Positions 6,393-27,823 of a stretch of DNA of 64,000 nucleotides are shown here, piece after piece. Source of the stretch: Pseudochryseolinea flava (GTDB lineage: Bacteria; Bacteroidota; Bacteroidia; Cytophagales; Cyclobacteriaceae); the NCBI RefSeq assembly GCF_003286915.1, contig NZ_QMFY01000001.1:1-64000 (forward strand), given 5' to 3'. Position 1 is the stretch's first letter. Each line of letters opens with the position of its first letter. The notes under the pieces were generated by a model. That model searched no databases and had not been told where the DNA came from. It saw nothing but the letters and a program-made list of their open reading frames with translations. The translations under genes were made by a program, and so were the position numbers.

Positions 6393-6436
6393 CTGATCTA
6401 AGTCATAACGGGGGCGGCACTTTCGATCTAGATTTG
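6393..6436 (+). promoter_or_regulatory. Crp/Fnr-type site plus -7 box, TonB-receptor operon
   Basis: The palindrome CTGATCTAAGTCAT (6393-6406) fits the N-TGA-N6-TCA-N pattern seen at six other places in this window. A perfect Bacteroidota -7 element TAGATTTG lies at 6429-6436, its first base 29.5 nt from the palindrome centre. The predicted transcription start falls at about 6441, on the GTG start codon, so the message would be leaderless or nearly so. Confidence 0.65.
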
Positions 6437-6440
6437 ACAT

Positions 6441-6821
6441 GTGAAGAAAGTCATCTCATTTGCGCTTATCGTATTAATGTCTATCCAGAGCATTTACCAG
6501 CTTGGCGTAATTGGGTACTTCCAAGTCAACAAGACATACATCGCAGAAGTGCTTTGCATCAACAAGGACAAGCCACTTTTGAGCTGCCACGGAAAATGTT
6601 TTCTGAAACGAAATTTAAACGAGCGCGACAAGACCGACACAGCGCGCGCACTAGGTAAAAACAAAGTTGAAATTCCGACTTTTATAGTAACAGAAGCGTG
6701 CACGTTGTTATTGCGCTGTGCGACCTCATACGTTACAAATTCAACGTATACAACGATCTACGCGTTCACCTACACACCATTCACTTTTCATCCACCATGC
6801 TGCCCGTTGAATAAAGTTTAA
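6441..6821 (+). CDS. Small membrane-anchored protein with C-x-x-x-C motif
   Basis: A 126-aa protein that begins with GTG and has an N-terminal hydrophobic segment (KKVISFALIVLMSIQSIYQL). It then carries the signature INKDKPLLSCHGKCFLKR, in which Cys-His-Gly-Lys-Cys could bind a metal, and a C-terminal HPPCCP. I know this type only as small hypothetical proteins encoded just before TonB receptors in Bacteroidota. It starts an apparent operon with the TonB receptor and the BNR-type lipoprotein (gaps 79 and -4 bases). The GTG start is supported by the signal-like N-terminus and by the promoter position. A metal, perhaps copper, handling role is inference. Confidence 0.75.
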   Translation: MKKVISFALIVLMSIQSIYQLGVIGYFQVNKTYIAEVLCINKDKPLLSCHGKCFLKRNLNERDKTDTARALGKNKVEIPTFIVTEACTLLLRCATSYVTNSTYTTIYAFTYTPFTFHPPCCPLNKV

Positions 6822-6900
6822 TCGTCATTCAAACTATTCACGGCCATACGGCAAGTCTTCCGCGTGAAGACATGAACGCCCATGGCCAAAATTCAACACC

Positions 6901-9282
6901 ATGAAAAGTATATTTCCATTCCTTCTGTTTCTTACCATTCTTTATAGCGCTGCACTTTGTCAGAACATCTGCAAAGGAAAAATATTTGACAGCGAGACCA
7001 ACGAACCGCTCGTCGGTGCCGCTGTTATAATCGCCGGCACACCATTGGGCAACGTCACTGATCTTGATGGGGTGTTTCTAATTGATGCGCCTACGCCTTT
7101 CGATTCCATTGTCGTCTCCTACCTTGGCTATGAGCGAAAAACGATTTTCGTATCGGGAAGAGAAATCATAGTTGCCTTACAGTCATCCACCAACAACCTT
7201 CAGCAAATCGTTGTTACTGCAAATCGTGAGGCATCGCTGCGAACGGAATCGCCTGTAGCCATTAGCAAAATATCAGCTGCAACGATCAACGACACAAAAC
7301 CTATTCTCCTTACGGAATTGCTCAACAAAGTTCCTGGCGTTGTGATGCTAAACTATAATAATGAACAGCATGCTATGTCTATTCGACAACCGATGGGCAC
7401 CTCGTCTTACTTCCTTTATCTTGAAGACGGGCTACCGGTGCGCCCTATGGGCATCTTCAATCATAACGCGTTAATTGAGATGAACATCTTGGGTATTTCA
7501 AACATTGAGGTGGTGAAAGGCCCTGCCTCGTCGTTGTATGGTCCTGAGGCTGTGGGTGGCGCCATTAACTTCATTACAAGAAAACCGTCCGCAGTTCCTA
7601 CTTTCCAAATCGGCGTTGCCGGCGATGCATGGGGATATAAAAGAATTCAATATGGTGCGGGTGGAGTGATTGGTAAAAAATTAGGCGTGCACATTAGTGG
7701 ATTCGAAGCGAACCAACGCAACGCATGGCAAACTTATTCTGACTACAAAAAATCTTCCGTGAATTTACGCGTTGACTATTCCCTCTCAAAACGCACAAAG
7801 CTTAGCGGCGCATTTTCGGGAAACGAGTATTATTCAGATATGGCTGGCAGTGTCGATAGTTTAGCATTCTACAACCGTGAATATTCAAGCACGACTGACT
7901 TCACGTATCGCAACGTGCATTCGCAGCGAATACGTTTTTCCATCAACCATCAATGGAACGATGGTCAGGAAACATTGCTTACGGTTGCCTATCGTGATAA
8001 TTACATAGAACAAAATCCAAACTATGCTATTCGCTGGACAAGTGGAAGTGAAACAGCTTCGGGAGAACGAAATCGGAATTCGTTCTACAGCCGCGTCGCG
8101 CTCGTGCAGCACAGTGTAAAGTTTAACTTTCTTGATTCAAAACTATTAGCGGGAGGAAGCTTCGACTACTCACCCACAACATATTGGGCATATAAAATCG
8201 ATATGGCTGCGCAACTGCGCCCCGATGGAAAATCTGTTGAACGTTATCGCATCCTGCAAGAGCAACCAGACCAGTTCCTATCAAACTATCAAGCCGATCT
8301 CAGCAATTACGCCTTGTATTCACAATTCGAAGCAAGCCTTCATAGCAGAATACGTGTTACCCTTGGGGTTCGCTACGATAGGATGGCCTTCGATTATCTT
8401 AATCGGCTTGAAGCGAGTACGGGTAAAAAGTCATTTGAACAAGTTACACCCAAGATCGGTGCGACATTCGATTTACTACGCGACAAAGGTTTATACGTAA
8501 ACTATAGCCAAGGTTTTTCACCACCGGGACTCACCTCTATCTTCAGAAAGAAACCGGGCATGTCTGGTGCGACTTCCGAGTTCTACTACAATCTTGAGCC
8601 GGCACGGTTCAACAACATTGAGATAGGCGGATGGGGCGCATTCTTAGATAGCAAAGTGTATGTAGATCTAGCGGTTTATCAAATGATAGGACACAAAGAG
8701 TTGCTTAATATTCGACAGACAGATAACACGACCGATTATCAAAGTGCCGGGAAGACATTGCACCGTGGCATTGAATATGGATTTACGTTTAAGCCTACAC
8801 CGGAATTGTTTATCCGTTTCGGTGGCACCAATGCGATACACCGTTTCGAAGATTTTACGCTCAGTGCCAGAACTTCAGACCAAACAAAAAATGTAGACGG
8901 CAACGAAATGCCACAGTCGCCGCGATGGATCGCCAATAGCGAAGTCACCTACAAACCTAATTATGTCGACGGTTTTAGTGTTTCGATTGAATGGCAGCGT
9001 ATCGGAAGTTGGTTTCAAGATCAAACCAACAACGTGAAATATGATGACAAAGGGCTGCTTGGATTTCGCGGCGTGAGCTATCTAAATCTTCGCATGGGAT
9101 ACGAAGTAAAGGGCTTCGAGTTTTTCACCAATGTGATAAACATTACGGATGAACTTTATGCAAATGCTGCCACAAGAGGAAATGGAGTACACGACAGAAC
9201 AACTTTTACACCCGCCGCACCGCGAACATTTGTACTCGGACTTCAGTACACGTTTAAAGGGACACAAAAATCCGTACTATGA
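6901..9282 (+). CDS. TonB-dependent outer-membrane receptor (candidate copper receptor)
   Basis: A 793-aa protein. A Sec signal peptide (to about residue 21) is followed by a carboxypeptidase-regulatory-like domain (about 25-100; GKIFDSETNEPLVGAAVIIAG), a plug domain (about 115-225; ETPVAISKI-like segment, EVVKGPASSLYGPEAVGGAI), and a 22-strand beta-barrel ending in a C-terminal aromatic segment (TFVLGLQYTF). It imports a ligand across the outer membrane with TonB energy. The ligand is not evident from the protein. It shares a predicted Crp/Fnr-type promoter with the nos genes and is followed, with a 4-bp overlap, by a Cys-rich lipoprotein. This makes copper supply for N2O reductase a plausible role, comparable with OprC/NosA. 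An iron chelate or B12 receptor remains possible, the latter because a B12-dependent reductase lies close by. Confidence 0.9.
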   Translation: MKSIFPFLLFLTILYSAALCQNICKGKIFDSETNEPLVGAAVIIAGTPLGNVTDLDGVFLIDAPTPFDSIVVSYLGYERKTIFVSGREIIVALQSSTNNLQQIVVTANREASLRTESPVAISKISAATINDTKPILLTELLNKVPGVVMLNYNNEQHAMSIRQPMGTSSYFLYLEDGLPVRPMGIFNHNALIEMNILGISNIEVVKGPASSLYGPEAVGGAINFITRKPSAVPTFQIGVAGDAWGYKRIQYGAGGVIGKKLGVHISGFEANQRNAWQTYSDYKKSSVNLRVDYSLSKRTKLSGAFSGNEYYSDMAGSVDSLAFYNREYSSTTDFTYRNVHSQRIRFSINHQWNDGQETLLTVAYRDNYIEQNPNYAIRWTSGSETASGERNRNSFYSRVALVQHSVKFNFLDSKLLAGGSFDYSPTTYWAYKIDMAAQLRPDGKSVERYRILQEQPDQFLSNYQADLSNYALYSQFEASLHSRIRVTLGVRYDRMAFDYLNRLEASTGKKSFEQVTPKIGATFDLLRDKGLYVNYSQGFSPPGLTSIFRKKPGMSGATSEFYYNLEPARFNNIEIGGWGAFLDSKVYVDLAVYQMIGHKELLNIRQTDNTTDYQSAGKTLHRGIEYGFTFKPTPELFIRFGGTNAIHRFEDFTLSARTSDQTKNVDGNEMPQSPRWIANSEVTYKPNYVDGFSVSIEWQRIGSWFQDQTNNVKYDDKGLLGFRGVSYLNLRMGYEVKGFEFFTNVINITDELYANAATRGNGVHDRTTFTPAAPRTFVLGLQYTFKGTQKSVL

Positions 9283-10481
9283 AAATGATTCGTCTTCTTG
9301 CATTGTCTGCTCTTTTTATCGCGATCTTTGTTCGGTGCGACAATACACAGCGTGAGATACAAATTTGTTCCGCAAATGCCGAATCTGTTTATCTGACACA
9401 CGACAACCTCGACAATCCGGTTGTTGCATGGACGGAAAAAAATAATGGACAACTGCATTTCACTTTTTCTATTTCCCAGGATGATGGTAGTTCGTTCGTT
9501 CAAAAAGCATCGATATTGTTAGGTTCATCTGTGGCAACGCATGCAGAAGGAATGCCTAAAGTTGCGTTCAAAAGAGACGGCACCATCCTGGTAGCATATG
9601 AAAAGAAAATCCCCACAGCGACGAACAAATATGCCGGGTCAATTCACTACAGAACTTCGGAAGACGACGGCAGGACATGGTCTACAGAAAAGACGATCCA
9701 TCGCGACACCACTTCAGGCAGAAGTAGATCGTACTTTGACATCGAAGTGCTTCCCGATGGAGAAATTGGTGCAGCATGGCTCGACATCAAACCACGGCAC
9801 GGAAAAGGCGGGAGAATCGTACTGTTCTCAAAAACAGATGCAACCAATTCTTTTTCAAATGAAATCCTCATTGATTCATCAGCATGTCAATGTTGCAGGA
9901 TTGATGTTTACACCGACGAGAACAAAAAAATCTACGTTGCTTATCGGGGATTGCGTAGCGGAAAAATGGATAAGCAAATTCGCGATATGATGGTGGCGAC
10001 ATCAGCGACAGATGGCACAAAATTCTCGCAGCCCATCAACATCAGCGCCGATCAATGGAACATCGATGGCTGTCCTCACACCGGACCAAGTTTGTGCAGC
10101 AACAAAGCGGGGCTGTTTACTATGTGGTATACTGAAGGTAACGGCAGCGGTTTGTATTATGCACATAAAGCTAGTGACGAAGACAATTTTTTTCCAAGGG
10201 AGCTTGTCTCGCGCGCTGGTCACCATCCTCAGGTAAGTTCGAACGGTGATGTGATCGCCATGCTTTGGGAGGAAAACATGACCACAGACGGAAGCACAGC
10301 TACAACGATTCATTGTCGATTGATCAAGGATGGAATAGACATCGAAAAGCGTGTATTAACGCCACGAAGTGCAAATTCCATCGCGCCGGTCGTCACCCAT
10401 ACGAAAGATGGTTTTCTCGTCGCTTGCCTGATGGAAAACGAGAATGGCGTAGCCGTGTATGCTATGAACCTTAAGCTGTAG
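9279..10481 (+). CDS. BNR/sialidase-fold lipoprotein with Cys motifs
   Basis: A 400-aa protein that starts inside the stop of the TonB receptor gene (ATGA overlap), so it is translationally coupled. The N-terminus is a signal peptide with Cys20 as probable lipid anchor (ALFIAIFVRC; Arg at -1 is unusual). The body shows Asp-box-like repeats (SQDDGSSF, SEDDGRTWS) of a beta-propeller, as in BNR/sialidase proteins. However, it has conserved-looking Cys and His motifs CQCCRIDVY and DGCPHTGPSLC, and HH in RAGHHPQV, which are more like a metal site than a sialidase active site. It is therefore not called a sialidase. A surface or periplasmic metal-binding partner of the receptor is inferred. Confidence 0.85.
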   Translation: MKMIRLLALSALFIAIFVRCDNTQREIQICSANAESVYLTHDNLDNPVVAWTEKNNGQLHFTFSISQDDGSSFVQKASILLGSSVATHAEGMPKVAFKRDGTILVAYEKKIPTATNKYAGSIHYRTSEDDGRTWSTEKTIHRDTTSGRSRSYFDIEVLPDGEIGAAWLDIKPRHGKGGRIVLFSKTDATNSFSNEILIDSSACQCCRIDVYTDENKKIYVAYRGLRSGKMDKQIRDMMVATSATDGTKFSQPINISADQWNIDGCPHTGPSLCSNKAGLFTMWYTEGNGSGLYYAHKASDEDNFFPRELVSRAGHHPQVSSNGDVIAMLWEENMTTDGSTATTIHCRLIKDGIDIEKRVLTPRSANSIAPVVTHTKDGFLVACLMENENGVAVYAMNLKL

Positions 10482-10510: not shown

Positions 10511-10561
10511 TGTGGATATGATCGCGATCATACCACAACTTTCGTTGCGCACATAGCTTTG
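10511..10561 (+). promoter_or_regulatory. Crp/Fnr-type operator and -7 box of scdA
   Basis: The 14-bp perfect palindrome ATGATCGCGATCAT (10518-10531) sits in a longer near-perfect palindrome (10511-10537, TGTGG..CCACA arms, one extra base on the left). A perfect -7 element TAGCTTTG follows at 10554-10561, 29.5 nt from the centre to its first base. A transcription start near 10566 puts the site at -41.5, the class II activator position. The sequence 10559-10572 also reads as an exact Fnr-type TTGAT-N4-ATCAA, but it lies on the start site. Confidence 0.75.
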
Positions 10562-10578: not shown

Positions 10579-11322
10579 ATGGGCACATATTTGAATAACA
10601 CATTGGAGGGAAACCTACAGACGGTTGCCCAGCTTGCCATTTCACATCCTGGCGCGTTAGCTGTATTCACGAAATACAATATCGACTACTGCTGTGGTGG
10701 AAACCGAAGCTTGGAAGACGCTTGCAGAAGGATCGGCTTAGCGCCTGAAAAAATAAAAGCTGAGATCATTCAACAATCACAAGGGGAGATTAACGATGCG
10801 GTTCATCCGCAGCATTGGCGATCTTCATTCCTGGCAGACTATATCATTGAAAACCATCATCACTACGTAAAAAGAGCGATACCAGAAATTCAAGCATTCC
10901 TCGACAAAGTTTGTGATGCACATGGCAATGACTGCCTGGCGCTGTTACAGATACGCGAACATTTTCTTGATCTATCAGAAGATTTAACGAGCCACATGAA
11001 AAAGGAAGAGTTAGTGCTTTTTCCAGCAATCAAGAGACTCGAAGCACAACAGCACTTGGATCATCCGCTTGCAGATTCCATTCAGGCACCGATCGAAGCC
11101 ATGGAGCATGACCATGTTGCCGCAGGAGAACTGATCAAGCAGATCAGAACATTGTCGAACAACTATACACCTCCTGACTTTGCTTGTCCAACATTTAAAA
11201 TTACATATCAAAAGCTACATGAATTCGACAACGACTTGATGAAGCACGTGCATCTTGAAAACAATATTTTATTTGCGCGCTACAAAGAAAAGGCTACGCT
11301 TGGAGGAAGCTGTTCACTTTAA
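10579..11322 (+). CDS. scdA: Iron-sulfur cluster repair di-iron protein (RIC)
   Basis: A 247-aa cytoplasmic protein of the ScdA/YtfE family, which repairs Fe-S clusters damaged by nitric oxide or oxidation with a di-iron centre. Residues 1-65 are the ScdA N-terminal domain with the paired cysteines in NIDYCCGGNRSLEDAC. Residues about 85-240 are a hemerythrin-like four-helix bundle, with histidines in ENHHHYVKR, REHFLDL, HMKKEE, EHDHV and HVHLENNILF as iron ligands. Its length is that of the family. It is followed by the ribonucleotide reductase gene 30 bases later and is preceded by a strong Crp/Fnr-type site, which fits induction under low oxygen or NO. Confidence 0.95.
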   Translation: MGTYLNNTLEGNLQTVAQLAISHPGALAVFTKYNIDYCCGGNRSLEDACRRIGLAPEKIKAEIIQQSQGEINDAVHPQHWRSSFLADYIIENHHHYVKRAIPEIQAFLDKVCDAHGNDCLALLQIREHFLDLSEDLTSHMKKEELVLFPAIKRLEAQQHLDHPLADSIQAPIEAMEHDHVAAGELIKQIRTLSNNYTPPDFACPTFKITYQKLHEFDNDLMKHVHLENNILFARYKEKATLGGSCSL

Positions 11323-11352: not shown

Positions 11353-13203
11353 ATGCAGATCAATCAACGAATTCTTAGTGATCTCATTATTTACATGAAG
11401 TATGCACGGTACGTTCCCGCGTATCAGCGTCGTGAATTGTGGCCAGAAATCTGCGAACGATACGCGCGCATGTTGATTGAACGATATCCCTTACTCGAAG
11501 CTGAGATTAGGGAGAATCTGCAATTTGTTCTGGACAAGAAGGTATTGCCGTCGATGCGTGCGATGCAATTTGCTGGCATCGCCATAGCGCGGAACAATAG
11601 TCGTATTTACAACTGTGCATACATGCCTGTCGATGATATCCGTGCTTTTTCTGAAGCGATGTTTTTATTGTTGGGAGGAACGGGGGTTGGCTTCTCCGTG
11701 CAAGTTGATCATGTAGAACTTCTCCCGCCCGTCAAAAGGGCACAGAAAAAAAGAAGGTTTTTAGTTGGTGATAGTTTGGAGGGATGGGCGGATTGCGTGA
11801 AGGTTTTGCTGAAGGGGTATTTCGGAAAAAGCGATTATGTTCCGGAATTTGATTACTCGGATATTCGACCGAAGGGAGCGCGATTGGTTACCGCTGGTGG
11901 AAAAGCCCCGGGGCCTGAGCCGCTCAAAATTTGCATTGCACACCTAACAGCTATACTCGATAGAAAAACAAATGGAGAAAAACTCAGTACACTTGATTGT
12001 CATGATATGATGTGCCATATCGCGAATGCGGTATTGGCGGGCGGGATCAGAAGGTCAGCCATGATCTCGCTCTTTTCCTATCACGATGAAGAAATGTTAA
12101 CCTGTAAATTCGGCAATTGGTGGGAACTCAATGAACAACGCGGTCGTGCCAATAATTCTGTAGTGTTGCCAAGGAACAGCATAACGAAAGATGAATTTTT
12201 CGCGCTGTGGAAAAAAATAGAATTATCGGGATCGGGAGAACCAGGATTCTATTTCACAAACGATTTGAACTGGGGGACTAATCCGTGTTGTGAAATTGCA
12301 TTGCGACCATTTCAATTTTGCAATCTCTGTGAGGTAAATGTATCGGATGTTCAAAGTCAGGAAGACTTAAATGAACGCGCTGCAGCAGCCTCGTTCTTCG
12401 GAACATTACAAGCAGGGTTCACAAATTTCCACTACCTGCGAGAGATATGGAAAATAACCACTGAACGTGAAGCACTAATTGGTGTTGGTATGACCGGTAT
12501 TGCCAGTGGTAAAGTGGCTGCGCTAGACCTTAAGGAAGTAGCAGAGGTAGTAAAAAAAGTAAATCTCCAACTATCGAGTCGTATCAATATTCAATTTGCT
12601 GCGCGATGCACTACCATCAAACCTTCGGGAACTTCATCGATTGTACTCGGCACTTCCTCGGGAATCCATGCGTGGCATAATGATTATTACATTCGGCGCG
12701 TGCGTATCGGGAAGAATGAAGCGTTGTATGATTATTTGAAAGCCAATCATCCGGAGCTTTTGGAGGATGACCTACTGAATTCCAAGCAAGGTATTATCAG
12801 AATACCACAGTGTGCGCCAGAGGGATCAACACTACGAACTGAAAACGCTAGAGAGCTGCTGGATCGAATAAAAAAGTTCAACCTAGAATGGGTGCGCAAC
12901 GGATACCGAAACGGAAGCAACGCCAATAACGTCTCAGCAACGGTGAGCATCAAAGACGAAGATTGGCAACACGTTGGCGAATGGATGTGGGAAAACAAGG
13001 CATCGTACAATGGTCTCAGTGTGCTGCCCTATGACAACGGTAACTACAAACAAGCGCCGTTCGAAGATATTGACCAAGCCACATTCACTTCCCTGGCCTG
13101 CAGCTTAACCGAACTTGACCTATCGAAAGTATTTGAACCCGATGACGAAACTGAACTTCAAACCGAAGCTGCTTGCGCGGGAGGATCTTGTATCATTACA
13201 TAA
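11353..13203 (+). CDS. nrdJ: Adenosylcobalamin-dependent (class II) ribonucleotide reductase, monomeric type
   Basis: A 616-aa enzyme that reduces ribonucleotides to deoxyribonucleotides without oxygen, using coenzyme B12 to make the thiyl radical. The visible motifs are the first-strand Cys in RIYNCAYMPV, GGTGVGFSVQ, the catalytic finger loop NPCCEIALRP (the family usually has NPCGEI) with the partner Cys in FCNLCEVN, TTIKPSGTSS, and the C-terminal redox pair CAGGSC at the very end. Length, lack of an ATP cone and the arrangement resemble the monomeric Lactobacillus-type triphosphate reductase more than the dimeric NrdJ. It lies 30 bases after scdA and is probably co-transcribed, giving DNA precursor supply in anoxic or NO-exposed cells. 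Confidence 0.93.
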   Translation: MQINQRILSDLIIYMKYARYVPAYQRRELWPEICERYARMLIERYPLLEAEIRENLQFVLDKKVLPSMRAMQFAGIAIARNNSRIYNCAYMPVDDIRAFSEAMFLLLGGTGVGFSVQVDHVELLPPVKRAQKKRRFLVGDSLEGWADCVKVLLKGYFGKSDYVPEFDYSDIRPKGARLVTAGGKAPGPEPLKICIAHLTAILDRKTNGEKLSTLDCHDMMCHIANAVLAGGIRRSAMISLFSYHDEEMLTCKFGNWWELNEQRGRANNSVVLPRNSITKDEFFALWKKIELSGSGEPGFYFTNDLNWGTNPCCEIALRPFQFCNLCEVNVSDVQSQEDLNERAAAASFFGTLQAGFTNFHYLREIWKITTEREALIGVGMTGIASGKVAALDLKEVAEVVKKVNLQLSSRINIQFAARCTTIKPSGTSSIVLGTSSGIHAWHNDYYIRRVRIGKNEALYDYLKANHPELLEDDLLNSKQGIIRIPQCAPEGSTLRTENARELLDRIKKFNLEWVRNGYRNGSNANNVSATVSIKDEDWQHVGEWMWENKASYNGLSVLPYDNGNYKQAPFEDIDQATFTSLACSLTELDLSKVFEPDDETELQTEAACAGGSCIIT

Positions 13204-13205
13204 CC

Positions 13206-13249
13206 ATGACAAAAATCATATTTTATTATCTACCCGCGCGCTAACTTTC
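13206..13249 (+). promoter_or_regulatory. Crp/Fnr-type site plus -7 box, regulator gene
   Basis: The palindrome ATGACAAAAATCAT (13206-13219) has its centre exactly 29.5 nt before a near-consensus -7 box TAACTTTC (13242-13249). The gene downstream is itself a Crp/Fnr protein, so positive autoregulation is likely. Confidence 0.65.
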
Positions 13250-14239: not shown

Positions 14240-14261
14240 GACGAAACGTTTACACATAGGT

Positions 14262-14311: not shown

Positions 14312-16183
14312 TTACGCGCTGAGATTGATTTTGCTTTCCATTGCTTCGCGCAACACCGCCAACTCCCCTTCGCACATAAGAAGTTCTTCCGTAAATGTAG
14401 CCGACGAAATGTGATCAGACAATGAATGGTAATAGGCTATGCCGGCAGAAAGTTGAGCGACAAATGTTTGTATTTCCTTCCGCCACTTCGTGTCCTCCAT
14501 ATCATTTGAAAGTATTTGATCGCGGACGTAATCAAGGTTTAACTTCAACTCTTTGATAAACATGTGGGGTCGCGCCGGATCGGTGATATCCGTTCTGCCG
14601 TAGATATGATCAGTCATTTCCCGCAAGGAAACCACTTTGTTGAAATACGCGATATTGGGTCCAGGACAGATCGTGACTGCCTTCAGGTTCTTTATCGGCG
14701 GAAGATCATACGTTACAATCGCAGCATTGCTAAGTCCGATGCAAAGACATTCCTTACTCACAATTTCCGCATGCTGCTTGTCATAATCCGATGATGACAG
14801 GGAAAGGCTTTTTAACGCGGCAATTTTCTTCTGCTGATAAACCGTCGATGCTGTACAGATCGGATCCTTTGTAAATTCCGTATTCGACACAAGGTGTTTC
14901 TCGGTACAAGGACTGCCAGGCTTTCCCTTCTTAACTCTCGCCATTTTTTCACGCTCAGAGCTTGTTCCTTTAAGGTAGTTGAAACGAATACCCAGTGGTG
15001 AGTTTTTACTAAGTATAATATCGCTTTCGAGCGCACTGGATAATAAATTCAAAGTTTCTTCATCAACAGTTGTCGCTTCCGGACAAAGCAAAAAGGGTGT
15101 TCCCCATCCAGTACTTTGCACATCATAGCGCGAGGCGAGAAACATTGCTTCGTGGTAGGTTCCTATGCCACCCTGCACGGTAATGGCAAGAGGATGCGGC
15201 TTGTCAAAAACCTCGAGACCTTTTGTTTTTAGTGCAGCAACATACAACGCATGTAATGAGGTGATGAGTTCTTCACGCTTTAATTTGAACTCTTCCAGAA
15301 TCGGACCAAGTAATGAACCGTCTGTGGCGAATGCGTGTCCTCCACAGTTAAGTCCCGATTCTATCCTGAATTCACTTACCCAGATACCTTTCTTCGCTAA
15401 ATATTTTCCCTGAATAAAGGCAGAACGATAATCGCTCACTTTGATTACAATCTTCTTGTCGAATGTAGCCCATGATTTTGCATTGAACGCTGGTAATGTT
15501 TCGAGATAGTTAAACAAACGGGGATTCAATCCAGCAGAGAAAATTACGGATGAGTCAACGAGATCGCTATTGGCGTAACCCCGAAGTGCTGCAACGGCAT
15601 CCGATCCATCGGTAAGTTGATGACCTGATCGATCATAATTGTTTTTGTCGACCTTCGTCATGATGTTGACGTCGATGCAACCTGGCTTGATCTGACTTGT
15701 CAGGAATTTTACCAGCGTATCGCGTTCGATTTTATCTTTTGCTTGCAACAGGCGTTCATACGAAAGTCTTAGGATGCTATCACCCGGGAGCATCTCAAAA
15801 TATTTAGTGAGCTCGCTACCGACACAAAATGTCGAGTGTCGTAAGTCTTCGAACTGCTTTTTGACGATGCGATTGAGTAGATTCAAATAGTCGGTAATTC
15901 TTTTAGCGCGGTAGTCTTGCTCCTTTGGCGTAATGGGAACATATTGTTCGTCGTACTTCTCGCAGTAATATTTCCGCATCAACTCCACCAACTTATCTTC
16001 GATAATCGATACTACTGAATTAATACCATACCGTGCTACTTTAACAGGCGTATCGATGGTGTAAGCTAATCCCATAACAGGGATGTGGAATGTATGAATT
16101 GGAGTTGTCGTGTGCATAGTGCTGGGATTCAAAGCACCGGCAATTACGATGTTAATAACATCACCATCTATGATTAAAGTCAT
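14312..16183 (-). CDS. Large conserved protein, possible FMN/TIM-barrel enzyme
   Basis: A 623-aa protein that I do not recognise with certainty. Several stretches look like enzyme active-site segments: FHIPVMGLAYTIDTPVKVAR near the N-terminus, ESGLNCGGHAFATDGSLLGP in the middle, AITVQGGIGTYHEAMFL and STGWGTPFLLCPEATTVDEE. The GGIGT and TGWGTPF elements resemble FMN-dependent TIM barrels such as nitronate monooxygenase or glutamate-synthase-type enzymes. The C-terminal part has several Cys (PCTEKHLV, DPICTAS, KECLCIGLSNAAI) that could hold a cluster. No export signal is seen. An internal start at 16117 (MHTTTPIHTF) is equally likely. It lies between globin and DGC-like genes in the N-oxide island, which hints at a redox role under anoxia. 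Confidence 0.75.
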   Translation of the reverse strand: MTLIIDGDVINIVIAGALNPSTMHTTTPIHTFHIPVMGLAYTIDTPVKVARYGINSVVSIIEDKLVELMRKYYCEKYDEQYVPITPKEQDYRAKRITDYLNLLNRIVKKQFEDLRHSTFCVGSELTKYFEMLPGDSILRLSYERLLQAKDKIERDTLVKFLTSQIKPGCIDVNIMTKVDKNNYDRSGHQLTDGSDAVAALRGYANSDLVDSSVIFSAGLNPRLFNYLETLPAFNAKSWATFDKKIVIKVSDYRSAFIQGKYLAKKGIWVSEFRIESGLNCGGHAFATDGSLLGPILEEFKLKREELITSLHALYVAALKTKGLEVFDKPHPLAITVQGGIGTYHEAMFLASRYDVQSTGWGTPFLLCPEATTVDEETLNLLSSALESDIILSKNSPLGIRFNYLKGTSSEREKMARVKKGKPGSPCTEKHLVSNTEFTKDPICTASTVYQQKKIAALKSLSLSSSDYDKQHAEIVSKECLCIGLSNAAIVTYDLPPIKNLKAVTICPGPNIAYFNKVVSLREMTDHIYGRTDITDPARPHMFIKELKLNLDYVRDQILSNDMEDTKWRKEIQTFVAQLSAGIAYYHSLSDHISSATFTEELLMCEGELAVLREAMESKINLSA

Positions 16184-16228
16184 ACTGGAGAGGATAACTT
16201 ATAATCTTAACACTACATGATTAAGTAT

Positions 16229-17317: not shown

Positions 17318-17362
17318 CAAAGATTCCACTTATGCGCCAGCCCTCCTATGACTACAATCATA
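17318..17362 (-). promoter_or_regulatory. Crp/Fnr-type site plus -7 box, fasciclin gene
   Basis: On the minus strand the palindrome ATGATTGTAGTCAT (17361-17348) has its centre 29.5 nt from the first base of AATCTTTG (17325-17318), one mismatch from TAnnTTTG. The distance is the same as at scdA, the regulator gene and the PRTase gene. Confidence 0.65.
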
Positions 17363-18140: not shown

Positions 18141-18143
18141 AAG

Positions 18144-18872: not shown

Positions 18873-20097
18873 AGGGCTTCATTGCAGGTGATTCGTCTTT
18901 TAAATTTTGCGGCGTCATGACAGGAATGGCTTTCTCTGCTTTATCCATTAACAGCACAAGAAAACTTCGCCATAACAAGACCGCTGCAGGCATCTGCTCA
19001 ACAACCATCGAATACATGCTCACAGGGTGATGAGGAATATCGCCGACGCTATCCTTGTTCAAATCATACCCTTCGTATTTATCCCAGTAGTTTCCGTTAA
19101 CACTATTGAGCACTAAACTTCCGTTGGTTGCCAGATCAAAGGTATTTGATGAAAAATTATTGCGTTTGAAATTATTATCGTCGCAGCTGGCCTGAAGCTT
19201 GATCGCGTAACCATTTTCGGAGAAAGTGTTATTGTCAAATTGTATTCTACTCGAGCCTTCCATCAAAATACCAACAGAATTTTGCAAGAATCGATTTCCT
19301 GAAACAAAACTATCGCGAATGTCTTTAAGCAGTAAACCGTAGGCGGAAGATCCCCAATTGTGTTCAAAAGTATTGTTGATCATCTTCACACCAGTTGTGT
19401 ACATCACCGCTACGCCCGCCCCGTTTTCTACAAAAGTGTTGTTTCGATATTCATTATTATGGGAAAACATAAAATGAAGCCCATAACGCATATTGCCTTT
19501 ACTATAATTTCCAGTGATCAATGAATTGGTGACGAACTCGAAATAAATACCATCACGATGACCTTTCACGATGTTGTTATCGACTGTGATATGATCGCAT
19601 TTCCATAGATGTATACCATTTCCAATTTGATGCTCGGCTTTTGCATCGGACTGCAGCTGATTACCTACAATCCAGGAATGCGAGGAGTTCGAAAAATGTA
19701 TTGCGAAGAAAGTGTTTACGAAGCGGTTGTTTGTGATCCTTAGCCATTTTGAGTCAAGCACTTTTATGGCTGCAAGATCATTGATACTTGCAATACCGGT
19801 GTTGATAAATTTCAATCCCGATATCGTTACATAATGCGCATGAATCGTAAAAATCTCCACCTTATGATCACCATCAAGTACTGGAAAATTTTCACCAATA
19901 AGTGTAAGACTCTTTTCAATAATAATATTGCCCTCCTTATAAGTGCCAGAGGTGATGTACAGCGTATCTCCTGGTTTGGCCTGGGAGATCGCTTGTTTAA
20001 TGCTTTTAATTTTCCCCTGTTTACTAACCGTTATCGTACTGCCGTAAGCAGTTATGGCCACGAAACAAGACAGGAAAATAATTTTTAGAGCTTTCAT
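18847..20097 (-). CDS. nosD: Periplasmic copper-maturation protein NosD
   Basis: A 416-aa exported right-handed beta-helix protein needed for CuZ assembly of N2O reductase (family knowledge). A Sec signal (MKALKIIFLSCFVAITAYG) is followed by many parallel beta-helix coils with N-N-x-F/I ladders (ITNNRFVNTFFAIHFSNS, KMINNTFEHN, IQFDNNTFSENG), then NGNYWDKYEGYDLNKDSVGD, a typical NosD element, and a hydrophobic segment near 365-385. The ATG at 20097 was chosen because it gives a clean signal peptide; an ATG seven codons upstream exists. It lies between the NosL fusion and nosF. Confidence 0.92.
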   Translation of the reverse strand: MKALKIIFLSCFVAITAYGSTITVSKQGKIKSIKQAISQAKPGDTLYITSGTYKEGNIIIEKSLTLIGENFPVLDGDHKVEIFTIHAHYVTISGLKFINTGIASINDLAAIKVLDSKWLRITNNRFVNTFFAIHFSNSSHSWIVGNQLQSDAKAEHQIGNGIHLWKCDHITVDNNIVKGHRDGIYFEFVTNSLITGNYSKGNMRYGLHFMFSHNNEYRNNTFVENGAGVAVMYTTGVKMINNTFEHNWGSSAYGLLLKDIRDSFVSGNRFLQNSVGILMEGSSRIQFDNNTFSENGYAIKLQASCDDNNFKRNNFSSNTFDLATNGSLVLNSVNGNYWDKYEGYDLNKDSVGDIPHHPVSMYSMVVEQMPAAVLLWRSFLVLLMDKAEKAIPVMTPQNLKDESPAMKPYDLNTKSQ

Positions 20098-20145
20098 GCA
20101 TTGATGACCAGACTTCATGTGAGCGATAGAACGCCATTGAAGTTG

Positions 20146-21162
20146 TCATTTATATTGTGTCTGTAATTCGCCCCAACTCATTTGAATACCTTTCCATTCG
20201 GCATTCATCTTTTGGAGCGCATCACTCGATTCAAAGGCGGCAACCTTACTCGCCATCGGACTTTTAATCGCTTCTGCCTTAATGTATAGCGCGTTTTTGG
20301 CGTCAATTAGTTTTTCCGGTTTAGCAAAATCGACAATCAATAAATTTTTTACATTTTCAATTGAGACCTCATTACTGTTGTAGAAACTTAGCATGCAATT
20401 CACGTCATCGAATTTGTAAATCTTGCCCTTCGTTGTTACCAACTCAGCGCCAAACTTATGATCCATTAAAGTCATCTTACATGTATGACATGCATCCTTT
20501 CCATAGACCAGTGGTTCAGGCTCAACGGAGCACGCCATCATGCACCATGCCATCATCACGATCATGGCTACTGTAGTTTTCTTTGTTTCCATTCTTGATT
20601 TCATTATTTCTGCAGCAAGGGTAATCATTGTTAGCAGTCCGGCAATCAAAAAAATCCACCCACCAACATCAGGACCAGAGTATGCTGTAAAGTTGAGAAG
20701 TTGTTTTGTGCCAATGAGTGGCGGCTGGTACGACATACCTGGCACGACAATAGGTGCTGTCGGATCGAGGTTGTGGCCATAATCATAGCCCCATCTATAA
20801 AAATCAACGAGTGCAACGATGCCACAGGCAACAATCAAGGTGGCGAATGCAATAAGCATATATCGGCGATTGACAATAACTGTTAAAATACCCATGGCGA
20901 TTACACCACCCACAATGTATATCATATATTTAAACTCAGGAAACATGCTGACCTCGATATGCTTCATACCGATATAGTGATTGAGTGCACTAATAATTTT
21001 AACATCTCCCGTCAAATTGTCTATCCATATTTTCATATCCAAACCCTCCGGATACTGCGGCGCCCACATGAGAATTTGCCATAGCGGAACGTAGTAAGCC
21101 GACACCATTGATAACGCAGCTAACAGAATGACAACACGCGATATTGGTCTGAGCTTTTTCAT
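20146..21162 (-). CDS. nosL: Membrane protein fused to NosL copper chaperone domain
   Basis: A 338-aa two-part protein. Residues 1-190 hold four hydrophobic spans (at about 10-28, 78-96, 101-120 and 164-185) with an extracytoplasmic loop rich in Trp and Tyr. Residues 195-335 are a NosL domain: a lipoprotein-like segment MMAWCMMACS, then the copper-binding YGKDACHTCKMTLMDHKFGAEL and YKFDDVNCMLSF (each shown in full within its limit only in part: DACHTCKM, FDDVNCM). NosL delivers Cu(I) to N2O reductase. Proteobacterial NosL is a free lipoprotein of about 180 residues, so the membrane fusion is the notable feature; such fusions occur in clade II nos clusters. It is preceded by an intercistronic hairpin after nosZ. 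Confidence 0.88.
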   Translation of the reverse strand: MKKLRPISRVVILLAALSMVSAYYVPLWQILMWAPQYPEGLDMKIWIDNLTGDVKIISALNHYIGMKHIEVSMFPEFKYMIYIVGGVIAMGILTVIVNRRYMLIAFATLIVACGIVALVDFYRWGYDYGHNLDPTAPIVVPGMSYQPPLIGTKQLLNFTAYSGPDVGGWIFLIAGLLTMITLAAEIMKSRMETKKTTVAMIVMMAWCMMACSVEPEPLVYGKDACHTCKMTLMDHKFGAELVTTKGKIYKFDDVNCMLSFYNSNEVSIENVKNLLIVDFAKPEKLIDAKNALYIKAEAIKSPMASKVAAFESSDALQKMNAEWKGIQMSWGELQTQYK

Positions 21163-21179
21163 TGTATTATTTTTTTAGA

Positions 21180-21207
21180 AGCCCTATCCCATCTCGGGGA
21201 TAGGGCT
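21180..21207 (-). other. Intercistronic hairpin between nosZ and nosL
   Basis: A perfect 11-bp inverted repeat AGCCCTATCCC / GGGATAGGGCT with a 6-nt loop. On the nos-coding strand it is followed by TCTAAAAAA, not by a U-run, so it is not an intrinsic terminator. A role in protecting the 3' end of nosZ mRNA, or in reducing downstream expression, is inferred. Confidence 0.7.
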
Positions 21208-21234
21208 ATCAACCTGCAAACTATGAATTTGAAT

Positions 21235-23220
21235 CTATTGACCAGCCCCGGTGATCTGATCTTCGATTTTACCGGTTGAGTATTTTATTTCAACATTATT
21301 GTTCGGTGCAGACACGCGTGCATATCCTTGCATCTCCTGATGTAGTGCTGAACAGAAGTCGGTACAGTAGAAAGGGAACACACCAACACGATCGGCTTTC
21401 CATTTCAATGTTTGTGTTTCTCCAGGCATGATTAAGATCTCGGCATTGTTAGCACCTTTGATAGCAAAGCCGTGCGGAACATCCCAATCTTGTTCTAGGT
21501 TCGTAACGTGGAAATATACATCGTCACCTTGCTTAATACCTTCTATGTTGTCGGGTGTTAAGTGCGACCGGATCGCTGTCATATATACGTGTACTTCGTT
21601 TCCTTTTCTTTCAACTTTAGTTTTGCCTTCGCCAAGCGCGGCATAAGGGTGCTTGTTGTCTTCGAGTCTGTATATTTTTTGTGACTTTGGCATGAGCAAT
21701 TCTGCGGGTATTGCTTCAGCATAGTGAGGCTCACCGGTAGTCGGAAAGTCAAGAATCAATTTCATTTTTTCACCGCTGATATCGTACAATTGGGCCGACT
21801 GCGTAAGCTCGGGACCTGTAGGCAAGTAGCGATCTTTTGTAATCTTGTTATATGCGATTACATATTTGCCATGCGGCTTCTTTGTTGGTCCACCAGGCAC
21901 GCAAAGGTGTCCGATGGAGTAATAAGTAGGTGCACGATCAAGTACTTTCAATTCTTTTACATTCCACTTTACGATTTCAGAAGAAACGAACATCGATGTG
22001 TATGCATTTCCGTTCGCATCGAATTCCGTATGCAATGGACCGAGCCCAGGTTTTTGAACCTCACCATAGAGGGCTGATTCATACTTTACAACAGGGATAC
22101 CCGCGAAATCACCTTCGAAAGATTTGTCGGCAATAGCTTTCTGCAATTTTGAGAAGGAGAACACCGGGATAAGCGCTGCAAGCTTGCCACTGCCGACGAT
22201 GTATTCACCTGACGGATCTACATCACAGCCGTGGGGTGACTTCGGACATGGGATAAAGTAAACGATATCTTTAAGTTCAGCCGGATCGAGTTGCATCACT
22301 TCTTCCAAAATCTCAGAAGACGACATATGCGTTGACTCATTTAACACATTGTGTGCATATTTCGACTTCACTGTCTTTCCTTTTCCTTGCTTCAGGTACT
22401 CTTCCGCCTTCTTCCAGTTAACAGCCATGATAAAATCTTTGTCTTTTTGTGACGCATTAACTTCGAGCAAAGTGTATGCTTGTTCGGTGTTGTAGGTTGA
22501 GAAGAAGAACCATCCATGAGAAGGACCTTTGCCTGCACGTGCAAGGTCGAAGCTTACACCAGGTGTTACAAGTTGGAAGGCGATATTCATATGTCCGGAA
22601 GTATCGACCTTTATAAAACTTACTGTTCCTTTGAAATTCTTTTTGAATGAGCTGATTGGAACATCGGTATTGTCGCCAATCGGAACACTGAAGCGTGTAC
22701 TTGCCACAACGTACTCCGTATTTTCCGTAATGTATGGTGACGAGTGATTGCCTCCGCTATTGGGCAACTCAAGGATTTCGACAGTCTTAAAAGTTTTTAA
22801 GTCGATGCGCGCAACACGCGGTGTGTTGTTACCATTGGCAAATGCCCAACGTCCATCATGTTCGCCATTTGTTGTCGACAATGAAATATGGTGCAAGTCA
22901 TCCCAGGGCACAAAGCCGTTGGCAGTATTTAACATGGGCTTGCTTTCTTCGCTATAGCCGTAACCGTTTTCAGGGAAAGTGGCGAAAACAGGAATGATCT
23001 TGAACAACCGCCCTGAAGGAATTCCGTACACGCCGATCTGACCATTAAATCCGCCAGACACAATGTTGTAAAATTCATCATATTTTCCGGGCGCAACATA
23101 CGCTTTGCTAGCAGCGTCTCCAGTGATAGCTTCACTTGGACCAGATGGCTTACAACTGTATATGGTGAAGGCAGCGAGAATGCCAGCCATGCCCCATACA
23201 AATTTATTGAGCGTTTTCAT
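21235..23220 (-). CDS. nosZ: Nitrous oxide reductase, clade II lipoprotein type
   Basis: A 661-aa copper enzyme that reduces N2O to N2 outside the cytoplasm. The N-terminus is a Sec/lipoprotein signal (LAAFTIYSC, Cys23), not a twin-arginine signal, which marks clade II NosZ. The seven-bladed propeller (about 50-520) carries the CuZ histidines in DDLHHISL, NGEHDGRW, GGNHSS, SPHGCD, GPLHTEFD, IGHLCVPGG and KPHGKYV. The C-terminal cupredoxin domain has the CuA motif YCTDFCSALHQEMQGY (near residue 625). Length is as expected. It lies between a cytochrome c gene (30 bases upstream) and nosL, in one operon under a Crp/Fnr-type promoter. Confidence 0.97.
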   Translation of the reverse strand: MKTLNKFVWGMAGILAAFTIYSCKPSGPSEAITGDAASKAYVAPGKYDEFYNIVSGGFNGQIGVYGIPSGRLFKIIPVFATFPENGYGYSEESKPMLNTANGFVPWDDLHHISLSTTNGEHDGRWAFANGNNTPRVARIDLKTFKTVEILELPNSGGNHSSPYITENTEYVVASTRFSVPIGDNTDVPISSFKKNFKGTVSFIKVDTSGHMNIAFQLVTPGVSFDLARAGKGPSHGWFFFSTYNTEQAYTLLEVNASQKDKDFIMAVNWKKAEEYLKQGKGKTVKSKYAHNVLNESTHMSSSEILEEVMQLDPAELKDIVYFIPCPKSPHGCDVDPSGEYIVGSGKLAALIPVFSFSKLQKAIADKSFEGDFAGIPVVKYESALYGEVQKPGLGPLHTEFDANGNAYTSMFVSSEIVKWNVKELKVLDRAPTYYSIGHLCVPGGPTKKPHGKYVIAYNKITKDRYLPTGPELTQSAQLYDISGEKMKLILDFPTTGEPHYAEAIPAELLMPKSQKIYRLEDNKHPYAALGEGKTKVERKGNEVHVYMTAIRSHLTPDNIEGIKQGDDVYFHVTNLEQDWDVPHGFAIKGANNAEILIMPGETQTLKWKADRVGVFPFYCTDFCSALHQEMQGYARVSAPNNNVEIKYSTGKIEDQITGAGQ

Positions 23221-23250
23221 TTTGTTTTTATTAATTGAAGAGATGTAAAT

Positions 23251-23733
23251 CTATTTTTCGCCGTCATTCTGCCTCATGAACTCCAAGATGTCGCGAGAGT
23301 CACCGACACTCACATTCTGATTCGGCATCCGAGTCAAACAGAGTTCGAGAAGTTTTTGTGCTTCGGCATCTTGATCAAGCATCACATCGACGTTGGTGAT
23401 CATATTCATAATCCATTCTGGCTTTCTTCGCTGTGTAACGCCTTTCCATCCGGGTCCTACTACCCGTTGATCATCTAGTTTATGACATGCAGCACATTTC
23501 ATTTCGTAAATGGCCAGCCCTCTCCCAATTCGATCTTGCTCAAGCGGCGTATTCAACGTAACCTCCTTAATCTCCCCGATACCCTTACCCTCATCTACTT
23601 TCTTTGGTGTTTCAGCTACTTCATATTCATCGGAACCATTACTAGAATTTTGATCTTTTGGTTTTTCGTTACCACATGCTGCCAGCATCGCCAACAGCAT
23701 GACTACAGGAAAAAGCTTTTTCATAGTTTTCAA
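23251..23733 (-). CDS. Mono-heme cytochrome c lipoprotein of the nos operon
   Basis: A 160-aa lipoprotein (MLAACG, Cys20) with an acidic linker (about 22-65) and one c-type heme domain: CAACH at residues 80-84 and the axial Met in TRMPNQNVS. It is likely the electron donor to NosZ, or links the quinol pool to it, as proposed for cytochromes encoded beside clade II nosZ. It is the first gene of the nos operon, 30 bases before nosZ. Confidence 0.93.
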   Translation of the reverse strand: MKTMKKLFPVVMLLAMLAACGNEKPKDQNSSNGSDEYEVAETPKKVDEGKGIGEIKEVTLNTPLEQDRIGRGLAIYEMKCAACHKLDDQRVVGPGWKGVTQRRKPEWIMNMITNVDVMLDQDAEAQKLLELCLTRMPNQNVSVGDSRDILEFMRQNDGEK

Positions 23734-23777: not shown

Positions 23778-23823
23778 CTAAAGTAGTCCGAGAACAAGCG
23801 ACGCCTTTATGACTTTAGTCATA
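23778..23823 (-). promoter_or_regulatory. Crp/Fnr-type site plus -7 box, nos operon
   Basis: A strongly palindromic TATGACTTTAGTCATA (23808-23823; core ATGACTTTAGTCAT). On the minus strand a -7-like box TACTTTAG runs from 23785 to 23778, 30.5 nt from the palindrome centre, one base longer than at the other sites. The leader before the cytochrome c start is about 40 nt. The rest of the 268-bp gap to 24002 shows no gene. Confidence 0.65.
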
Positions 23824-26295: not shown

Positions 26296-27588
26296 CTAAT
26301 ACTCTGTTCTTTCAAACTCGTAAGTGTGGAAGCGTTCAAAGGCCGCACGTTCAAGTTCTTCGCGATGATTTGGGTGCGCTACTTTAATGAGTTCTTTCGC
26401 ACGCTGACGCATGTTCTTGCCATACAAATATGCAATACCATACTCTGTTACGATATAGTGCGCATGTGCCCGCGTCGTTACCACACCAGCGCCTTCTTTT
26501 AAGAATGACGAAATGCGCGATACACCTTTCGCCGTAATCGAAGGAAGCGCAATGATTGGCTTTCCGCCCTCCGACAATGACGCACCGCGAACAAAATCCA
26601 TCTGACCACCAACGCCTGAATAATGATACGTTCCGATAGAGTCAGAACATACCTGACCCGTAATATCAACTTCAATGGCGCTATTGATCGCCGTAACTTT
26701 CGGATTGGTTCTAATAACAGCTGTATCATTCACGTAGTCGATGTTCAACGCTACTACCGATGGATTGTCGTCTACAAAATCATAAAGCTTGCGACTTCCC
26801 AGCAAAAACGATGTAACTGTTTTTCCTCTATACTTACGCTTGTGCTGATTGGTGATCACACCTTTTTCGATCAACGGAATAATACCGTCGGAAAACATTT
26901 CGGTATGCACACCAAGTTCTTTGTGATTCGTTAATGAAGCAAGTACAGCATCGGGAATTGACCCGATTCCCATTTGTATTGTCGCGCCATCCTCCACTAG
27001 CTCGGCACAATGACTACCAATACGCATATTGATTTCATTTAAGTCACCGCTAACCACCTCAGGAAGTTCTTGCTCGTGATACACGACAGCATCAAAGTCG
27101 TCGATCTTTACAATTCCGTCGCCAATGGTGCGCGGCATGCGTGGATTGACTTGCGCGATGACATGCTTAGCCGTCTTCACGGCAGTCGCGGCGATATCAA
27201 CAGAAACACCGAGTGAGCAAAAGCCATGTTTATCAGGCGGCGACACTTGCACCAACGCAACATCAATTGGCAAAATATTACGCCTAAACAAAATTGGGAT
27301 CTCACTGAGAAAAATCGGCACATAGTCCGCACGCCCGTCATTAACCGCCGACCTGATATTTTGCGACACGAACAATGAGTTGATCCGAAAACTATCTTTA
27401 TACTTTTTGTCCGCAACAATCGCATTGCCTTGCATACTGATGCTCACGATCTCAATATTCCAAAGTTCCGATTGTCGCTCCGCCAGCTTCTGTAATAAGT
27501 AATGAGGCGTTGCAGCACCACCGTGCACGAACACCCGTTGACCTGGCTTAATTACTTTTACAGCATCTTCACCTGTGATATAATTCAT
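26296..27588 (-). CDS. Acetyl-CoA hydrolase / CoA-transferase family
   Basis: A 430-aa cytoplasmic enzyme of the acetyl-CoA hydrolase/4-hydroxybutyrate CoA-transferase family, which moves CoA between short acyl groups. Visible motifs are VFVHGGAATPHYLLQ at the N-terminus, VQVSPPDKHGFCSLG, QMGIGSIPDAVL, HTEMFSDGI with the Glu of the covalent intermediate region, and the end VTEYGIAYLYGKNMRQRA. The ATG at 27588 is preferred to one 16 codons upstream because family members begin directly with the KI.pG..V.. region. It precedes the two membrane genes by 43 bases. It could serve acetate or butyrate metabolism under anoxia. Confidence 0.88.
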   Translation of the reverse strand: MNYITGEDAVKVIKPGQRVFVHGGAATPHYLLQKLAERQSELWNIEIVSISMQGNAIVADKKYKDSFRINSLFVSQNIRSAVNDGRADYVPIFLSEIPILFRRNILPIDVALVQVSPPDKHGFCSLGVSVDIAATAVKTAKHVIAQVNPRMPRTIGDGIVKIDDFDAVVYHEQELPEVVSGDLNEINMRIGSHCAELVEDGATIQMGIGSIPDAVLASLTNHKELGVHTEMFSDGIIPLIEKGVITNQHKRKYRGKTVTSFLLGSRKLYDFVDDNPSVVALNIDYVNDTAVIRTNPKVTAINSAIEVDITGQVCSDSIGTYHYSGVGGQMDFVRGASLSEGGKPIIALPSITAKGVSRISSFLKEGAGVVTTRAHAHYIVTEYGIAYLYGKNMRQRAKELIKVAHPNHREELERAAFERFHTYEFERTEY

Positions 27589-27716
27589 AGCTACTCTATT
27601 TATGGTTTGACAAAATTTACCACCTTCAAAAGACACATCTTCCGGGATAGTTTCATTTTCGTTTCAAAAGTATTTCTTTCACGTCCAGTGTAGGGTGACG
27701 TCGCTCAACCAAAAGC

Positions 27717-27730
27717 CTGATTTATGTCAT
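27717..27730 (-). promoter_or_regulatory. Weak Crp/Fnr-type site toward the CoA-transferase operon
   Basis: On the minus strand it reads ATGACATAAATCAG, one base off the palindrome. The nearest -7-like sequence (TACACTGG, from 27692) is poor and 31.5 nt away, and the start codon is 135 nt off, so this site is less certain than the others. Confidence 0.35.
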
Positions 27731-27779
27731 GATTGCAAGTCGGTCGCATCCGTAACGCTGATACTGTTTAGTGACGCTT

Positions 27780-27823
27780 GTGACTGAAGTCATAATTTAG
27801 CGAAAGAAGGTCAAGTACCTTCG
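27780..27823 (+). promoter_or_regulatory. Crp/Fnr-type site plus -7 box, PRTase operon
   Basis: GTGACTGAAGTCAT (27780-27793) lies 29.5 nt, centre to first base, before TACCTTCG (27816-27823), one mismatch from TAnnTTTG. The ATG follows 18 nt later. Confidence 0.65.

Follow-up and report, generated by a model that had tools for sequence, protein, structure and literature searches.

We propose, with a probability of about 0.8, that the Crp/Fnr-family protein encoded at position 13266 in a 64-kb stretch of the Pseudochryseolinea flava genome (contig NZ_QMFY01000001.1, positions 1 to 64,000; "the window" below is this whole stretch) serves a small set of N-oxide genes as their dedicated activator, acting through the operator word TATGAY-N4-RTCATA at the class II promoter position. 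A dimer of the protein would bind this 16-bp palindrome, with its centre at −41.5 or −42.5, and would bring the housekeeping polymerase of Bacteroidota to a TAnnTTTG −7 box in the manner of a class II activator. Judged by their sites, the firm targets would be the RIC gene with a class II ribonucleotide reductase (RNR)-like gene, the nos operon, and a fasciclin gene with a truncated globin, so that the predicted regulon would combine nitrous oxide (N2O) respiration, repair of iron centres damaged by nitric oxide (NO), a B12-dependent RNR-like protein and a globin. Clade II NosZ, widespread among Bacteroidota, is an important biological sink for N2O. For the control of that sink the present analysis supplies a predicted regulator together with its exact operator, a list of targets and, at each promoter, a predicted start, so that this control can be tested directly with a single purified protein. 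"N-oxide" here means N2O reduction and NO protection rather than full denitrification, because the host genome gave no match to the NorB (PF22085) and NirK (TIGR02376) models, in a search that did not include NirS and nitrate reductases.

Geometry of the palindromes in the window

An earlier note on this DNA had described the pattern NTGA-N6-TCAN upstream of six transcription units. Reading TGA-N6-TCA palindromes on both strands, we found all six where the note had placed them. The core occurs 38 times in the window against 26.3 expected (standard deviation 5.0), a count that none of 100 shuffles reached; this enrichment is mild, and the bare core was therefore discarded as evidence. Measured from the palindrome centre, the −7 box starts at 29.5 nt at sites 6393, 10518, 13206, 17348 and 27780 and at 30.5 nt at the nos site, just as the note had it; four of these six boxes have one mismatch to TANNTTTG. 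Calling a box good if at least five of its six positions match TANNTTTG, and reading all 38 palindromes on both strands, we counted six good boxes at 29.5 nt, of which three were perfect, and another three at 30.5 nt. The 77 control spacings averaged 0.57 good boxes each, and none had more than 3. The six at 29.5 nt are the note's five and a minus-strand site absent from it, 27696-27707, which has a perfect TACTTTTG box and precedes a CoA-transferase gene.

In Flavobacterium psychrophilum TAnnTTTG has been mapped to −12 to −5 (PMC9723704). A centre 29.5 nt above −12 thus lies at −41.5, the class II position, and this box position together with the F. psychrophilum mapping supports the note's placing of an activator at −41.5 and makes class II activation a strong inference. 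The start sites in Table 1 follow by arithmetic.

As core and geometry the pattern NTGA-N6-TCAN stands, but as a discriminating word it gives way to TATGAY-N4-RTCATA. A matrix built from 58 sites of relatives, same-genus sites included and the window left out, ranks the note's six sites and a seventh that it had missed, 16169-16184, as the seven best of the 38 palindromes, with the eighth at 8.3 bits. Of the note's six sites, those of RIC, fasciclin and nos are firm by this N-oxide matrix and the PRTase site is a likely member, while the TonB and crp sites are ambiguous between this word and a second one described below.

When up to one mismatch is allowed, TGA-N6-TCA-N23-TANNTTTG matches 66 times in the host genome (6.54 Mb, 48 contigs) and the reversed control pattern 39 times. 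Seven matches are exact in core and box: three in the window, three in a cluster of cbb3-oxidase and stress-protein genes next to a receiver-Crp fusion gene on contig C22, and one by a third gene for a cNMP-binding-domain protein. The exact 16-mer TATGAY-N4-RTCATA occurs six times in the genome, four times in the window before genes (binomial probability of at least four of six falling there, 1.4e-7) and twice within long open frames, of 558 and 582 codons, where the boxes match at no more than three of six positions. We consider it scarcely credible that the sites arose by chance from a core and a −7 box that are both common: a core that is by itself mildly enriched would suit that explanation, and the spacing controls, the reversed-pattern control, the clustering of the exact word and the conservation reported next speak against it. 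The spacing peaks in the window and in relatives, and the word before nos, already contradict it.

The predicted operator word and its proposed regulator across relatives

The relatives sample comprised the best 80 loci by Crp homology, mostly from Bacteroidota with some from Chlorobi/Ignavibacteria and others, together with 36 kb of the window (81 stretches, 1562 palindrome readings); related loci are not independent, and gene families are single-linkage clusters. Good boxes numbered 89 at 29.5 nt and 60 at 30.5 nt, against about 12 at most spacings (next highest 34, at 51.5 nt, then 25 and 24), and 32 and 20 of these boxes were perfect, where no other spacing had more than 5 apart from the 9 at 51.5 nt. 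Sites were found for 120 genes, with 7.1 expected from control spacings, and 20 of the 149 sites had no assigned gene. They precede 23 of 82 crp homologues, 20 of 41 RIC genes, 16 of 33 nos cytochrome c genes, 15 of 18 genes for a small unknown protein, 5 of 6 for universal stress protein, 4 of 7 for NorB, 4 of 23 for fasciclin and 3 of 9 of the family of a 623-aa protein, counts in which many site-less members may sit inside operons or at contig ends. With a geometry far above chance in the window, and word and spacing both recurring in relatives, the regulon that the note had put forward is, as far as sequence can tell, real and conserved, and would work like the DNR and NnrR systems.

The fixed position also bears on the idea that the 13266 protein represses its targets or acts on them in both directions. 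A repressor need not hold the class II position, and 149 sites stand at the −41.5 and −42.5 spacings against a background of about 24; we regard both readings as very unlikely.

The logo from relatives reads TATGAY-N4-RTCATA followed by TANNTTTG. Its outer TA..TA is kept in 49 of 55 sites (RIC 17/20, nos cytochrome c 13/16, NorB 4/4, the small protein 15/15) and in none of the five universal stress protein sites. The gene for the small protein (about 95-124 aa) lies near the crp homologue, and its 15 sites, at loci from L161 to L198, all have the form TATGAT...TCATA; two members of its family gave no Pfam match.

A Crp ortholog (E ≤ 2.5e-38) is present in 16 of the 59 genomes examined. NosZ is found in 14 of these 16, against 10 of the 43 without the ortholog (p 1.1e-5). 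We scored the word over 12 positions in the 1,400 nt upstream of NosZ: with the ortholog, 11 of 14 genomes have it perfect (12/12) and the other three at 11/12, whereas of the 10 NosZ genomes without it one has a perfect word (G011), one has 11 (G017) and eight have 10 or fewer (perfect words 11/14 versus 1/10, p 0.0028). Nos and crp lie on different contigs in four of the 14, two with a perfect word (G002, G022) and two at 11/12 (G030, G035); in G030 the best word is 1.3 kb upstream and its box matches at 4/6. The exact 16-mer was also tried as a genome-wide marker in relatives and proved partly useful: on one strand, the 16 genomes that have the ortholog contain it 75 times and the control 27 times, and the 43 others show the signal too (121 against 79).

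Several observations weigh against our proposal. G011 has a perfect operator before nos (L202, C167, about 14812) with no ortholog detected, and another regulator may share the specificity there. Conversely, G009 and G016 have the Crp ortholog and lack NosZ. The stretches around crp showed no site with a gap of 22-24 in G009 and G035, and no site resembling the word in G016. Core and geometry are in excess also in genomes without the ortholog, which indicates that other regulators use the same geometry, and the one-mismatch pattern with box is likewise frequent in them. Among crp-homologue sites the outer TA..TA is kept in only 9 of 31, so that crp promoters are heterogeneous in relatives. In the window itself, a good −7 box is missing at both spacings, 29.5 and 30.5 nt, from the 16169-16184 site, the predicted start of the TonB promoter coincides with the GTG of the first open reading frame (ORF), which would mean a leaderless transcript or a wrong start, and the crp and TonB sites score better under the second word.

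The proposed regulator, a receiver-fused Crp and known systems

The 13266 protein belongs to the Crp/Fnr superfamily: its sensor and helix-turn-helix domains exceed the Pfam cut-offs, and its AlphaFold2 model (mean predicted local distance difference test score, pLDDT, 85.8) matches CRP/FNR chains with Z up to 20.6 over 194 residues (root-mean-square deviation, rmsd, 2.8). The best sequence match among solved structures is DNR (3dkw, E 8.9e-23). The structure search was uninformative for separating CRP from DNR/FNR, its rows being tied within the family and DNR not being among the 50 rows listed. Searches of plasmid records gave 28-33% identity among 15 matches listed of 418.

The recognition helix RVETVIR is kept in 73 of 82 clustered homologues; its VETVIR aligns with RETVGR of E. 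coli CRP and VETISR of E. coli FNR. The alignment bears out the note's statement that the Glu and Arg reading TGA are kept (Glu174, Arg178). Residues 180 and 181 have been linked to operator bases G3 and A6 (PMC1274295). Val at 180 would fit the absence of TGTGA, and we propose that Ile, at the place of FNR Ser212, reads the A in TATGA.

The N-terminal segment of E. coli FNR that bears three of the cluster-binding cysteines is absent from the 13266 protein, and with it the oxygen-sensing feature of FNR; the note, too, had said that FNR cysteines are lacking. Of the 82 clustered homologues, whose starts may in some cases be too long, 17 have no cysteine and 5 have at least four. FPYPGS aligns with QERSA of E. 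coli CRP, and Arg82, which binds the phosphate in the cAMP pocket of CRP, is absent. Haem-based NO sensing, which the note had suggested, is plausible as a guess, and NO bound through haem is our leading candidate for the ligand on the same footing. A signal other than NO (whether low oxygen, N2O, a cyclic nucleotide or some further ligand) has, in our estimate, somewhat less than an even chance. No ligand residues were identified in the protein, and the lack of NorB and NirK matches in the host genome would suit such a signal; against it, RIC has the largest number of sites next to crp, in other genomes the word stands before NorB, and both Arg82 and the FNR cysteine segment are absent.

The same genome encodes a second regulator, a receiver-Crp fusion (C22:571388-572446), with its own word and geometry. 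In stretches around 20 Crp-family matches of relatives with frames of 355-393 codons, together with C22, good boxes peak at 51.5 nt (30, against a typical 3-4 and a next highest of 14), which places the palindrome centre at −63.5. The word there is CCTGACAAAAATCAGG, often with a weaker copy at −41.5. In the host genome sites of this type precede genes for universal stress protein and pyridoxamine-phosphate oxidase (PNPOx), the ccoN region and the kinase/receiver-Crp genes. The surrounding cluster (C22:559452-573784; L071, L072) holds the receiver-Crp fusion and a PAS histidine kinase near cbb3 oxidase, FixG and a P-type ATPase, along with universal stress proteins and PNPOx, and has tandem sites at −63.5/−41.5 with CCTGACAAAAATCAGG.

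The window has a tandem pair of this second type, facing the CoA-transferase gene, with 27696-27707 at −41.5 and 27718-27729 at −63.5 of its promoter (second matrix 3.2 and 17.9 bits; N-oxide matrix −8.1 and 3.4). What the earlier note had listed as a weaker seventh site, at 27717, is the −63.5 member of this pair. Its plus-strand box matches at 4/6 (TAACGCTG). We also considered whether this palindrome might give the PRTase promoter a second site and discarded the idea: it lies exactly 22 bp upstream of the CoA-transferase site on the opposite strand, and it fits the second matrix.

A possible objection is, then, that the sites mainly serve the receiver-Crp fusion and that the 13266 protein is a bystander or a mere target. 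The two words share a core, and the fusion's word suits both the CoA-transferase pair and the A-tract site of crp. The two sets of sites nevertheless separate well: scored with the N-oxide matrix, the fusion's 34 sites from relatives have a median of −0.7 bits and N-oxide sites one of 21.5. Moreover, the same-genus genomes G004 and G006 have second-type words by a long Crp-family frame (L285, L286) and lack both the Crp ortholog and NosZ, and the perfect word before nos tracks the ortholog. We consider this alternative unlikely.

What the fusion may well do is act above the 13266 protein. The crp and TonB sites are better under the second matrix (Table 1), and the crp promoter of the close relatives L122 and L124 carries CCTGATAAAAATCATA, so that a cascade from receiver-Crp to crp is likely. 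The crp, CoA-transferase and perhaps TonB promoters would also, or instead, be read by the fusion, which with the PAS histidine kinase would stand upstream in a cascade like ANR-DNR or FixLJ-FixK2-NnrR; this suggests control in two steps, by oxygen or redox state first and by N-oxide second.

We do not class the 13266 protein as DNR, NnrR, FNR or CRP, because operator or sensor features that we compared are lacking in each case. DNR, the NO-responsive activator of nir, nor and nos in Pseudomonas, resembles it in Crp/Fnr fold and in a small regulon of nos and NO-related genes, which the sites reproduce here; it differs in operator (TTGAT-N4-ATCAA, PMC1274295, against TATGAY-N4-RTCATA predicted here), in helix (PETFSR against VETVIR), in phylum and in promoter type. 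NnrR of alpha-proteobacteria shares nos control and the two-step logic; the FixLJ-FixK2-NnrR cascade (PMC6710368) is the likeness for the one proposed here, except that our upstream regulator is itself a receiver-Crp fusion, and nosA, for a copper receptor, in the Brucella NnrR regulon (PMC1274295) parallels the TonB operon. The NnrR word is ctTTGcgnnnncgCAAag (PMC1274295), and the operator predicted here differs from the NnrR operator TTGcg-N4-cgCAA. HcpR of Porphyromonas and Bacteroides is also a Bacteroidota Crp/Fnr activator of the nitrosative stress response (PMC12750200, PMC13370916). Its HcpR2 motif is a different one, GTAAC-N4-GTTAC, with a predicted regulon of mostly hcp alone (PMC1274295), and for its haem ligand Met68 (PMC12750200) no equivalent was established in the 13266 protein. 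NssA/NssB of Wolinella, with homologues in Nitrosophilus, have been proposed as Crp/Fnr regulators of clade II nosZ, with a consensus TTGA-N6-TCAA that differs from the word here (PMC11539149).

A CRP/FNR meta-regulon study of an anammox community, which covered Ignavibacteria, Flavobacteriales and Saprospiraceae, reports no evidence there for nosZ regulation by the Crp/Fnr family (PMC8510549). In excerpts of open-access papers we found no account of how clade II NosZ is switched transcriptionally in Bacteroidota, and nothing on nos regulation in those of a Kordia paper (PMC7477175); a gap among open papers proves little. The regulon could have escaped notice, since earlier searches used matrices from other groups.

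We give roughly even odds to a wider reading in which this is a Bacteroidota-wide N-oxide regulon, extending into neighbouring phyla, whose helix VETVIR reads TATGA and which is layered under the −63.5 receiver-Crp regulator. On the same reading, what separates the paralogous pair in one genome would be the bases flanking the core, the sequence at its centre and the place of the site in the promoter, and TATGA would be a further half-site beside TGTGA (CRP), TTGA (FNR/DNR) and GTAAC (HcpR2). The two paralogous regulators would offer a clean pair for studying how Crp/Fnr specificity splits. Wolinella and Nitrosophilus, whose NssA/NssB were compared above, are Campylobacterota.

Genes behind the sites

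Table 1. Operators, predicted transcription starts and genes of the window discussed in the text
Feature	Position	Strand	−7 box	Predicted +1	Basis or score
TonB operator CCTGATCTAAGTCATA	6392..6407		TAGATTTG	6441	N-oxide matrix 13.1, second matrix 15.4 bits
126-aa protein with CHGKC motif, TonB receptor, BNR-repeat protein	6441..10481	+			domain matches
RIC operator TATGATCGCGATCATA	10517..10532		TAGCTTTG at 10554	~10566	N-oxide matrix 20.4 bits
RIC/ScdA/YtfE, iron-sulfur cluster repair di-iron protein	10579..11322	+			TIGR03652, 222.7 bits (cut-off 204.7)
Adenosylcobalamin-dependent (class II) RNR-like	11353..13203	+			TIGR02505, E 1.2e-73, under curated cut-off
crp operator CATGACAAAAATCATA	13205..13220		TAACTTTC	13248	N-oxide matrix 11.8, second matrix 16.5 bits
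crp, Crp/Fnr-family regulator, 198 aa	13266..13862	+			Pfam cNMP_binding and HTH_Crp_2 over cut-off
623-aa ORF	14312..16183 (start probably 16117)	−			conserved
Operator TATGACTTTAATCATA (minus reading)	16169..16184				perfect 16-mer; 21.8 bits, the window's best
Truncated globin, downstream of fasciclin	16229..16615	−			Bac_globin
Fasciclin-domain protein	16745..17299	−			domain match
Fasciclin operator TATGATTGTAGTCATA (minus reading)	17347..17362		AATCTTTG	17313	20.3 bits
nos operon: cytochrome c, clade II NosZ, NosL-containing, then NosD-like, ABC ATPase, permease ORFs	17373..23733	−			see text
nos operator TATGACTAAAGTCATA (minus reading)	23808..23823		TACTTTAG at 30.5 nt	23773	12/12 word; 20.8 bits
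Acetyl-CoA hydrolase/transferase family, behind tandem pair	26296..27636	−		27660	
Tandem pair, second (receiver-Crp) type	27694..27731	−	TACTTTTG		faces CoA-transferase gene
PRTase operator TGTGACTGAAGTCATA	27779..27794		TACCTTCG	27828	16.3 bits; precedes PRTase-like and PNPOx genes
PRTase-like (earlier note's name) and PNPOx-like genes	27842..28977	+			

The RNR-like gene is co-directional with RIC. In the nos operon the assignments rest on a Cytochrom_C match, on NosZ (TIGR04246, 936.9 bits) and on a NosL match; the NosD-like, ABC ATPase and permease genes were named from inspection of the ORFs, and their order is kept in relatives. The TonB operon may possibly supply or take up copper for NosZ. 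A homologue of its 126-aa protein adjoins nos in G033, and homologues of its TonB receptor and BNR-repeat protein lie near nos in G046.

The 623-aa ORF would be a further target, with a perfect operator and no clear −7 box. This operator overlaps the start of the ORF as first read; proteins of relatives start at residues corresponding to window position 16117, which makes that the probable start. Its protein gave no Pfam or NCBIfam match, and a weak model of it resembles an FMN-type TIM barrel of the FabK/PfaD/nitronate-monooxygenase kind (pLDDT 63.3; best structure match Z 14.4 over 210 residues, rmsd 3.2), and in the three family members with a site (of nine) the operator has the spacing. 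Between crp and this gene lies a small protein gene on the minus strand (13859-14257); its counterpart in the Chryseolinea sp. H1M3-3 locus L121 has a separate palindrome with the spacing.

The PRTase-like protein gave no match to Pfam or NCBIfam. PNPOx-like genes occur both here (28507-28977) and in the C22 cluster (L071:13507-13956), behind TGA-N6-TCA at equal spacing; in the window the PRTase-like gene intervenes between site and PNPOx-like gene. The third Crp-like locus of the genome, at C11:1007287, has an exact core and spacing between the cNMP-binding-domain gene and a DinB-family gene.

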